Assembly (NCBI GenBank): GCA_030706685.1
Contig: JAUZOA010000039.1
Location: forward strand, 1-45,296
Length of the DNA stretch: 45,296 nt
Source of the DNA: Bacteroidota bacterium
Lineage (GTDB): Bacteria; Bacteroidota; Bacteroidia; Chitinophagales; Chitinophagaceae
Direction: 5' to 3'
Positions 17,621-21,695 of the stretch are shown here, one piece after another. A program made the position numbers and the translations under genes. A model generated the notes under the pieces. The model ran no database searches. It was given only the letters and a program-made list of their open reading frames with translations, and was not told where the DNA came from. Each line of letters opens with the position of its first letter. Position 1 is the first letter of the stretch.

Positions 17621-20356
17621 TTATTCAAGTACCGGTCTCAGCCATCTCGTCATTTCATCTTTACTCATTCCTTTTCTTTTGGTATAATCTTCCAGTTGAT
17701 CAGGTTGAATTTTTCCCACTCCAAAATACTGGCTTTGCGGATGACTGAAATACCAGCCGCAGACGGAAGATGCAGGGAACATGGCTAATGATTCAGTGAG
17801 GGTGATGCCGGTAGCTTCTTTTCCGCCCAGCAAGTCAAACAATTTATATTTCTCCGTGTGATCGGGGCAGGCAGGATAACCGGGTGCCGGGCGAATACCT
17901 GTATAGGTCTCTTTGATCAGCTCTTCATTGCTGAGGTTTTCATCTTTTACATAACCCCAGTATTCCTTTCTTACTTTTTCATGTAATAACTCGGCAAAGG
18001 CTTCTGCCAAACGGTCGGCCAGTGCCTGCAACGTGATCTTATTATAATCATCGTGTGCTGCTTCAAACCTTTTGATATGAGATTCGATACCCTGTATGGT
18101 CACAGCAAAAGCGCCGATGAAATCGGGAGCGGTGAGTGGTGAGTGGTGAGCCGGGCCCGGTTTAATAAAATCAGCTAATGATAAATTGGGTTGGTCAGCC
18201 GCTTTCTTGATTTGCTGGCGTAAAGATTCTAATCTGACTTCAGACTTCAGACCTCTGACTTCAATAGTATCCGCGCCTGTTGCAGCCGCTTCCCAGAATC
18301 CGATCGTTCCTTTAGCGGTCAGCCATTTTTCTGCGATCAATTTATCCAATAATGAATTCGCGTCGTTATAGAGTTTGGTAGCTTCTTTCCCGATAACCTT
18401 ATCACTTAATATCTGGGGAAATTTTCCATGCATTTCCCAGGCAATAAAGAAAGGCTGCCAGTCAATATATTTCCTGATATCGGCGAGGCTATAATTATCG
18501 AATGTCTTTGTTCCTGTAAAAGTGGGAACCGGGGGGATATAGTTACTCCAGTTGATCTTTAGTTTATTTTGTTGCGCTTCAGCAAATGACAAATATTGCT
18601 TAACTGTTTTCTTATTGGCAAAATCTTCTGCCAGTTTTGTGTATTCTGCCCGGGTGGAACTGAGTAATTCCGGTTTTTGTTCCGCATTCAGCAATGAACC
18701 CGCTACGGTAACGCTTCTTGAAGCATCCAGTACATGCACTACGCCATTATCATACTGCGGGGCTATCTTAACGGCTGTATGCATACGCGAAGTAGTGGCG
18801 CCGCCAATCAGCAAAGGTTGTTTCATTCCCCGGCGTTTCATTTCATGGGCCACATGCACCATCTCATCCAAAGAGGGTGTGATAAGACCACTTAAGCCAA
18901 TGATATCTGCTTTTTCCTTTTCTGCTGTATCGAGTATCTTATCGGTTGGTACCATTACCCCAAGATCAACAATATCATAGCCATTGCAACCCAATACCAC
19001 CCCGACAATATTCTTGCCTATATCATGTACATCGCCTTTAACTGTTGCCAATAAGATTTTTGCGGCGCCTGCTCCCTCTTCGTTTACGGTACCGGCTTTA
19101 ATATGCGCCTGTCTCCGGAGTTCTTTCTCAGCCTCTATATAAGGAGTAAGGATGGCGACGGATTTTTTCATTACCCTCGCGCTCTTTACGACCTGTGGCA
19201 GAAACATTTTACCCGAACCGAAAAGATCGCCTACCACATTCATCCCATCCATCAACGGCCCTTCGATCACATCCAGCGGCTTGGGATATTTTTGCCTGGC
19301 TTCTTCAGTATCTATATCAATATAGTCGGTGATGCCATTGACCAACGCATGTTTCAAGCGTTCTTCTACGGAAGCGCTTCTCCAGGCATCGTCTTTCTTT
19401 TCTTCTTTATCTTTCGCTTTTACCGTTTCGGCGAATGTGATCAATTTTTCTGTGGCTTCGTTATTGTCATTGTTGCGATTGAGGATCACATCTTCACATA
19501 ATTTTCTTAGCTGTGGTTCTATCTCGTCATATACCACCAACTGTCCTGCATTGACAATGCCCATATCCATGCCGGCCTTGATGGCATAATACAGGAATAC
19601 TGAATGCATGGCTTCTCGTACCGGCTCATTGCCCCGGAAGGAAAAAGAAAGATTACTGACGCCGCCACTTACTTTGGTCAATGGCATCAGTTGCTTTATT
19701 TCCCTGGTGGCTTCAATAAAATCGACCCCATAATTATTGTGTTCTTCCAGGCCGGTGGCAATGGCGAATATGTTCGGATCAAAAATGATATCCTGCGGAT
19801 CGTAGCCTACCTGCTCCGTTAATATTTTATAGGCCCTGTGGCAAATCTCTACTTTGCGTTGTTTGGTATCCGCCTGTCCCTTTTCATCAAAAGCCATTAC
19901 AATCACGGAGGCGCCATAGCTCTGGCAGATAATGGCCTGTTCAATGAATTTCGCTTCCCCTTCTTTCATGGAAATGGAATTCACAATGCATTTACCCTGT
20001 ACGCATTTTAATCCTGCTTCAATGATCGCGAACTTACTGCTGTCAATCATGATGGGGATCTTGGCGATATCCGGTTCGCTTTGAAGGAGGTTCAGGAAAG
20101 TGGTCATGGCCTGTACGCCATCGAGCAGGGCGTCATCCATATTCACGTCAAGTACCTGGGCGCCATTCTCCACTTGCTGACGGGCGACGCTTAAGGCTTC
20201 TTCATATTTATTTTCCCTGACCAGGCGGGCAAACTTCTTGGAGCCGGTAACGTTGGTGCGTTCGCCCACGTTCAGGAAATTGGATTCGGGCCTCACAACG
20301 AGTGGCTCCAGCCCGGATAAACGTAAGTATGGTTTGATAACGACGGTGTCCTGCAT
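17621..20356 (-). CDS. metH: Methionine synthase, folate/cobalamin/activation part
   Basis: A 911-residue protein with the last three modules of cobalamin-dependent methionine synthase. They are a pterin-binding barrel ([18 protein letters not shown], about 25-290), the cobalamin module with DVHDIGKNI, whose His binds cobalt, plus [13 protein letters not shown] and [15 protein letters not shown] (about 330-600), and the SAM-binding activation module to the end ([32 protein letters not shown]). The homocysteine module is a separate gene upstream. Residues 699-708 and 736-742 of the activation module are encoded by interspersed repeats kept in frame. It is translated from an ATG directly after the stop of a 32-codon ORF. 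Confidence 0.96.
18131..18150. repeat. GGTGAGT triplicate inside metH
   Basis: Three copies of the heptamer GGTGAGT/GGTGAG lie in tandem. On the coding strand they encode part of PAHHSPLT in the activation module. GTGAGTGGTGAGTGGTGAG-like runs are a known style of low-complexity repeat in this family and are unlike the surrounding codons. Confidence 0.65.
18233..18262. repeat. TCTGACTTC/GACCTCTGAC repeat inside metH
   Basis: The stretch alternates CTGACTTC, AGACTTC and GACCTCTGAC and encodes [10 protein letters not shown] in metH. It shares GACCTCTGAC with the intergenic copy at 27811-27841, which has the same style (GAAGTCTGACCTCTGAC then CAGACCTCTGA). Confidence 0.7.
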
Positions 20357-20455
20357 TTATGAACTCTTTTTTACGAATAACTTCCTGACGAGTGAAAAGT
20401 TATTTACGACAAGAATAACCATGGATACTATTAAAAGGATCCGGGCAGTTGTCAT
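20357..20455 (-). CDS. 32-residue membrane peptide bridging the two metH genes
   Basis: A 33-codon ORF that exactly fills the space between the metH halves. Its ATG (20453-20455) overlaps the TGA of the homocysteine module (20452-20454) as ATGA, and its TAA (20357-20359) is directly followed by the ATG of the second metH gene. The peptide has a short N-terminus, a hydrophobic stretch ([12 protein letters not shown], residues 6-17) and a basic tail ([10 protein letters not shown]), as in single-span membrane peptides with the tail inside. Perfect junctions at both ends argue that it is translated, at least as a coupling device. No family is recognised. Confidence 0.6.
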
Positions 20456-21465
20456 ACTAATTCCTTTTCTACTACAGGTAATGGTCTTGGTTTAATCTTT
20501 TTTACATGTTCCGCGATATGCCGGATATGATCCGGCGTAGTACCGCAACAGCCGCCTACAATATTCACAAAACCCTCTTTGGCCCATTCTTCAATGAAAT
20601 GGGCGGTATCTTCCGGTTGCTCATCATATTCACCCATGGCGTTGGGCAGTCCTGCATTCGGATAGGCTGATACATAGCAACCGGCTATTTGCGACAATTC
20701 TTCAATATGCGGGCGCATTTCTTTGGCGCCTAATGCGCAATTCAGTCCAATACTCAAAGGCCTGGCATGCATCACAGAAGTGTAGAAGGCCTCAAGGGTC
20801 TGACCGCTTAGTGTTCTTCCGGATGCATCCGTGATGGTTCCACTGATCATAATAGGCAGGGGTTGCTTCTTTGTATCACGAAAATATTTCTTGATAGCGA
20901 ATATGGCGCCTTTAGCATTCAATGTATCAAAGATCGTCTCGATCAGCAAAAGGTCTACGCCGCCATCTACCAATCCTCTCACCTGGTCATAATAGGCGGC
21001 TACCACTTCATCAAAAGTGACGGCACGGAAACCGGGATTGTTTACATCCGGTGAAAGGGACAATGTTTTATTAAGCGGGCCCATAGCCCCGGCGACAAAA
21101 CGGGGTTTAGCCGGATTTTTCTTTGTGTACTCATCTGCAGCCTTGCGCGCCAATTTTGCGCCTTCAACATTCATCTCATAGGCAAATGCTCCAAGCTCAA
21201 AATCGGCTTGTGGTATCGAAGTAGCAGCGAATGTATTTGTTTCAATGATATCCGCCCCGGCCTCCAGGTATTCCCGGTGAATACCTTCTATTATAGAAGG
21301 CTGTGTAAGATTTAAAATATCGCTATTGTTTTTTAAATCAACGGGCCAATTTTTAAACCGCTCACCGCGGTAAGTAGCTTCCGTAGGTTTATGGCGCTGA
21401 ATCATGGTGCCCATAGCGCCATCAATGATCAGGATACGTTTTTGGAGTTCTTGCTGGATGCTCAT
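20452..21465 (-). CDS. metH: Methionine synthase, homocysteine S-methyltransferase part
   Basis: A 337-residue protein equal to the N-terminal barrel of Met[14 protein letters not shown] at the start, [18 protein letters not shown], the [17 protein letters not shown] segment, and the zinc site made by the Cys in GLNCALGA and the Cys pair in [15 protein letters not shown]. It transfers the methyl group from cobalamin to homocysteine. It forms one enzyme with the downstream gene; the two are separate chains with a small ORF between. The promoter at 21665-21695 and a leader of about 195 nt precede it. Confidence 0.95.
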
Positions 21466-21560: not shown

Positions 21561-21567
21561 TACTATT

Positions 21568-21623
21568 GAACTATGTAAACGCTGGGAAACCTGAAGTGGA
21601 GTTTCGTTGACGTTTATTAGTTC
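21568..21623 (-). ncRNA. Structured element in the metH 5' leader
   Basis: On the minus strand three nested stems are formed: GAACTA with TAGTTC, AAACG with CGTTT, and GAAAC with GTTTC, closing a 10-nt loop, with small internal loops between. The 56-nt element begins about 37 nt after the predicted transcript start of metH. It does not match the SAM-I, SAM-II, SAH or cobalamin riboswitch patterns that I know, and no B12 box is seen. A regulatory role is inferred from the place and the nested pairing. Confidence 0.45.
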
Positions 21624-21664
21624 AGTTTTACAGGCCGAACAATAAACAAATCCGCCTGAAGCCG

Positions 21665-21695
21665 CAAAGCTACAATAAGTATTTATAATATCAAA
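21665..21695 (-). promoter_or_regulatory. metH promoter, Bacteroidota type
   Basis: On the minus strand TTTG (21692-21695) is followed after 19 nt by TAGCTTTG (21665-21672), an exact fit to the TTTG / TAnnTTTG consensus. It predicts a transcript start near 21660 and a leader of about 195 nt, unusually long for this region. Confidence 0.8.

Follow-up and report, generated by a model that had tools for sequence, protein, structure and literature searches.

The vitamin B12-dependent methionine synthase gene (metH) is split in two in this genome, and between its halves lies a gene for a 32-residue protein (32 codons, positions 20357 to 20455, reverse strand) that has homologues between the metH halves of related bacteria and is almost certainly a real protein under purifying selection. 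In the window, the whole stretch of 45,296 nucleotides that was analysed, both halves were identified with Pfam and NCBIfam: metH-N (20452 to 21465, reverse strand, 337 aa) encodes the homocysteine S-methyltransferase half (PF02574, E 9.9e-102), and metH-C (17621 to 20356, reverse strand, 911 aa) the pterin-binding, B12-binding and activation domains (PF00809, PF02607, PF02310 and PF02965; TIGR02082). The ATG of the peptide gene overlaps the TGA stop of metH-N as ATGA, and its TAA abuts the ATG of metH-C; re-reading of the sequence confirmed the coordinates, length and both junctions given by the initial annotation. In dinucleotide shuffles of the intervening bases (n = 20,000), with length and overlapping ATG fixed, 13.2% of cases kept an open frame and 2.2% combined it with a flush stop, so that the single genome alone is weak evidence for an ORF. 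That the ORF is not due to chance is shown chiefly by homologues in 21 of 394 genomes of the family.

Of 294 genomes sampled from the family, 288 had a MetH-N match, and 80 more metH loci were added from named genomes, these being the best 80 of 577 encoding a relative. The same peptide was present in several genera among the first 114 loci. A profile built from 11 peptides (A1) was run over 394 Chitinophagaceae genomes and matched 21 of them (8 of 101 genera by a tally of the match table), with E-values from 3.8e-18 to 1.0e-8; the next match had an E-value of 0.0018, with none in between. At a loose cut-off of E 1, 268 of the 394 genomes show some match, nearly all weak. Each of the 21 strong copies has a metH-N match on one side and a metH-C match on the other, and profile A1 found no strong match away from metH in the 394 genomes; nine loci with weak matches (L136–L144) contain no match to either metH half. 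Together with two named loci (L038 and L059), the 21 profile loci gave a set of 23 sequences, of which 21 (two near-copies omitted) made up a second profile, A2. Run over the order, A2 matched 8 of 396 genomes, seven of them from Chitinophagaceae and the eighth (G609) over only 11 columns within a 114-codon frame (E 4e-4). Run over the phylum, it matched 2 of 395, both Chitinophagaceae.

The 23 copies are 30–32 residues long, and all have a hydrophobic stretch, the motif NN(F/Y) and a basic tail. Among nearest pairs (n = 16), pN/pS is 0.24, and the first, second and third codon positions differ 102, 43 and 200 times, the binomial p for these counts being descriptive only, as the pairs share ancestry. 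All pairs together (n = 253) average 0.27 for pN and 0.79 for pS (pN/pS 0.35). Residues L7, I14, N18 and N19 are invariant (23/23), position 20 is F in 20 copies and Y in 3, and K29 is K in 22, while positions 31 and 32 are free to vary (N/S/K/D and S/I/T/P, among others). At hydrophobic positions, I, L and V replace one another as they do in membrane helices. All 23 copies carry a net charge of 0 to +1 ahead of the hydrophobic span and of +2 to +5 beyond NN, and hydropathy and charge thus bear out the single hydrophobic span and basic tail first noticed in the window peptide. AlphaFold predicted one helix, residues 3–29 (mean pLDDT 87.8), the input alignment having just 4 sequences. By the positive-inside rule, the peptide would cross the membrane once and keep its basic tail on the cytoplasmic side.

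Scans of 3 of the 23 peptides against Pfam and NCBIfam gave no match at E 1 or better, and a profile search of the PDB gave none either; PHROGs returned weak, scattered matches only (E 0.037–0.25). Literature searches, judged by title and the start of the abstract, listed no paper that describes this peptide. The term undescribed is used here in the sense of these Pfam, NCBIfam, PDB and literature searches, with PHROGs weak; the global smORF catalogue (PMC11364881) lies outside this scope.

The two junctions are not equally kept. On the metH-C side, the peptide gene is flush in 17 of 21 loci, overlaps by 1 nt in 3 and is 3 nt apart in 1. On the metH-N side, the ATGA overlap occurs in 12 of 21, and the other 9 have their own start 10–32 nt past the metH-N stop, one of these starts being GTG. 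Of the two tight junctions first noted, the one with metH-C is therefore kept throughout (21/21) and the overlap with metH-N in 12; the conserved link of the peptide gene is that with metH-C, not that with metH-N.

Comparison of relatives with the same metH split, the check first suggested for this ORF, gave a divided answer: most have no such ORF (373 of the 394 family genomes have no peptide match at E 1e-8), but the carriers share the peptide sequence. In the genus of the window, the peptide is present in 5 of 7 genomes; one has none (G001), and one has a broken copy (G006; loci L006/L054). In the latter, the ATGA overlap is kept but a shortened 20-codon frame stops before metH-C; as this genome is 64% complete, an assembly fault is a possible cause. 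On a quick MetH tree (118 distinct rows, 817 columns), peptide presence needs 10 changes, of which 5 are forced by well-supported branches; shuffled labels need 21.3, and none of 500 shuffles was as low as the observed 10. Given these changes and the absence of the peptide from most family genomes, MetH evidently works without it. Peptide distances track those of MetH-N (r 0.42) and MetH-C (r 0.48), with 0 of 5000 permutations as high in each case. Because the copies resemble one another and share one location, a single early gain followed by many losses would be the simplest account of this history.

The patchy presence on the MetH tree is also what might be expected of a passenger gene, for which the metH gap is a landing slot and the operon a means of expression only, with a function unrelated to MetH. 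Other genes do occupy this gap in 16 of the 118 distinct MetH loci (L027, L033, L039, L042, L045, L050, L053, L062, L066, L071, L072, L085, L086, L098, L106 and L113), and the gap appears as a repeated landing site inside the operon for unrelated guest genes. Four of the 16 guests were scanned and contain PDDEXK_3 (GxxExxY), ORF6N, DUF1016 (YhcG) and META; the other 12 were sorted by eye. The first three types share their site with the peptide but are larger proteins, in which a small membrane helix is not the main feature, and they mostly recur at other sites of the six genomes tested: PDDEXK_3 matches number 9, 14, 9, 10, 3 and 0, and ORF6N matches 7, 5, 1, 1, 9 and 1, where split genes count as several and copies at metH are included. 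The peptide, unlike PDDEXK_3 and ORF6N, was not found elsewhere in 394 genomes, and its junction with metH-C is kept exactly. The low family occupancy (21/394) favours a passenger as much as it opposes a function with MetH. A passenger in a much-used slot is the main rival to the tether or assembly role discussed below, and we consider it rather unlikely.

The kept junction bears directly on how metH-C is translated. As the peptide stop never strays beyond –1 to +3 nt from the metH-C ATG (21/21 loci), translation of metH-C is probably coupled to that of the peptide, and the coupling part of the originally proposed ribosome bridge is supported. The microprotein gene is the middle cistron of metH-N, peptide and metH-C, and metH-C would be made largely by ribosomes that have just completed the peptide. 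The Lys-29 and Lys-30 codons (AAAAAG, 20366 to 20371, reverse strand) coincide with an A-rich stretch that spans –15 to –10 relative to the metH-C ATG; among the 21 peptide loci, A occupies –12 in all, –14 in 95% and –13 in 86%. At –3, U is found in 86% of these loci, as against A in 66% of 92 peptide-less loci, which include a few duplicate genomes. In Flavobacterium johnsoniae, A at –3, –6, –12 and –13 is described as positive for translation, and U at –3 as less common among genes that are translated well (PMC6847099). Judged by these preferences, the metH-C start of the peptide loci looks weak at –3. The Lys-30 codon is AAG in 16 of 16 cases, and the MetH-C parts of the same 21 loci use AAA 556 times versus AAG 196 times. 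We infer that the Lys-Lys codons serve the peptide tail and the metH-C start signal at once.

If only the act of translation mattered, the peptide would be a pure bridge that sets the ratio of the two chains, as had initially been proposed. The kept 3' junction and the A-rich stretch within the peptide tail are compatible with such a role, but its amino acids are conserved (pN/pS 0.24), and of the 92 loci that lack the peptide, 56 have just a spacer of at most 40 nt, 18 a gap of 41–200 nt and 18 one of more than 200 nt (median over the 92 loci, 23.5 nt). Keeping ribosomes moving is contradicted as the sole role, and we regard a pure bridge as improbable. Still less probable is stop-codon readthrough yielding some membrane-anchored MetH-C: peptide and metH-C share a frame in 18 of 21 loci, but the frames differ in 3 (L125, L128 and L134), and TAA, TAG and TGA all serve as peptide stop. 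These three loci also rule out, as a general mechanism, both readthrough and a frameshift at AAAAAG, which we take to be a possible slippery site after the manner of dnaX.

The peptide might instead act while still on the ribosome, sensing a metabolite or the state of the cell and tuning metH-C by stalling, as do regulatory leader peptides such as MifM, TnaC and SpeFL, which are likewise short and translated just ahead of the gene they precede. Its position directly before metH-C with a kept 3' junction, and a hydrophobic chain that lies within the ribosome tunnel at termination, are in keeping with this. Known stalling peptides usually keep residues near their end, whereas the last two residues here vary freely, and I, L and V stand in for one another at the hydrophobic positions; unlike MifM, TnaC and SpeFL, the peptide is conserved in the style of a membrane helix. 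A regulatory nascent peptide is accordingly an improbable reading, if a somewhat better one than the pure bridge.

What fits best, on grounds of linkage and shape, is a role in tethering the two-chain MetH at the inner membrane or in its assembly, although as a specific function this stays somewhat short of an even chance. A membrane tether, as first suggested, is plausible, and the single helix, basic tail and exclusive linkage to metH agree with it. Since a 32-residue chain is still almost wholly in the ribosome tunnel at termination, docking of the translating ribosome at the membrane is unlikely and the peptide would insert after release, forming one helix and leaving its basic tail in the cytoplasm. 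Once inserted, it may act as a small accessory subunit, keeping the two chains of methionine synthase at the inner membrane or aiding their assembly. The fuller proposal, of a split cobalamin-dependent methionine synthase held by a dedicated, co-translated membrane-tethering subunit, a third chain of 30–32 residues whose Lys-Lys codons double as the next start signal, is more tentative.

Among known systems, the peptide would work most like CydX, although it belongs to no family searched. As described in PMC4325964, CydX is a 37-aa subunit of cytochrome bd oxidase, and the two are alike in being small, with one hydrophobic helix and few invariant residues, encoded in the partner's operon and patchy among relatives. 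As in operon-encoded small membrane subunits generally, the metH peptide has no more than 50 residues and one predicted hydrophobic helix, and its gene is kept beside the partner genes (21/21). It differs in that the gene sits between the two halves of its partner, and no sequence match to CydX or another known small-protein family was found in Pfam and NCBIfam (3 peptides) or the PDB (profile). CydX and well-studied small membrane proteins like it also partner membrane complexes, unlike the likely partner here, methionine synthase, which is usually taken to be a soluble enzyme. The peptide is thus a narrowly distributed operon microprotein of a generally known kind with an unusual partner.

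No MetH residue was tied to the peptide once relatedness was allowed for (5 independent pairs on supported branches). By Fisher's test there were strong associations, for example Lys at MetH-N 248 in 23 of 23 peptide loci versus 23 of 95 others, but they were rejected, as 5 independent pairs are too few for any of them to reach significance. At MetH-C residue 2 (20351 to 20353, reverse strand), Gln occurs in 17 of 23 peptide loci versus 1 of 51 others with data; about 4 of 5 supported-branch pairs go in the same direction, again too few for significance.

Two further features of metH-N were observed. Near its start (about 21101 to 21400, reverse strand), the window is 76–78% identical to a locus of another genus (L129) and 53–65% identical to four loci of its own genus; the stretch upstream is 80–87% identical to the same four, a mosaic suggestive of a recombined patch. 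Two genomes of a single genus show a break in the MetH-N protein match near residue 113, which marks some 490–510 extra bases inside the gene (L130, 320–808; L131, 2268–2774).

Upstream of metH-N lies a conserved, pseudoknot-like leader RNA (21567 to 21658, reverse strand). Its core reads CAGGC G GATTT GTTTATTGTTC G GCCTG, followed by a variable loop and then GAACTAATAAACG, and stands a median of 185 nt (range 97–342) from the metH-N start. Exact core and partner are present in 103 of 118 distinct metH loci; of the other 15, 4 have too little upstream sequence and 11 no exact match, L039 and L099 being near matches. In P1 (CAGGC/GCCTG), both sides change in 4 of 5 pairs (58 rows). The 11-bp P2 never varies, and covariation therefore says nothing of it, its invariance being partly by construction, as the 58 rows were picked by the exact core. 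An alternative hairpin competing with P2 is no more than an idea: 87.5% of cells pair, but 111 of 500 shuffles reach that value and 99 of 500 the covariation score. A TANNTTTG element lies upstream of the leader at 21665–21672 and, by the pattern given in PMC6847099, would place the RNA start near 21660.

The exact core occurs once only in its own genome, at metH, and the one-mismatch matches inspected there all lack the partner. The leader pattern was found in 6 of 295 Bacteroidia genomes, all Chitinophagaceae, of which the sample holds 7. Rfam gave no match to the leader in the window region or in 11 loci. The SAM-II riboswitch model (RF01726) matched none of the same sequences at E 10 or better and did not exceed its cut-off in any of the 7 genomes of the genus, the 7 weak matches of G000 lying on other contigs. 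SAM-V and SAM-II are described as H-type pseudoknots (PMC6061858), which makes a SAM- or SAH-responsive switch a fair guess for the putative function of the leader. Literature searches found nothing on a methionine riboswitch of Chitinophaga, and the leader is perhaps an undescribed riboswitch of Chitinophagaceae.

For the split methionine synthase of these bacteria, the peptide provides a testable third component. The tail of one protein and the start signal of the next gene may be the same bases, and a central B12 enzyme whose gene encloses that of a conserved small membrane protein would suggest that methionine synthesis is under spatial control.
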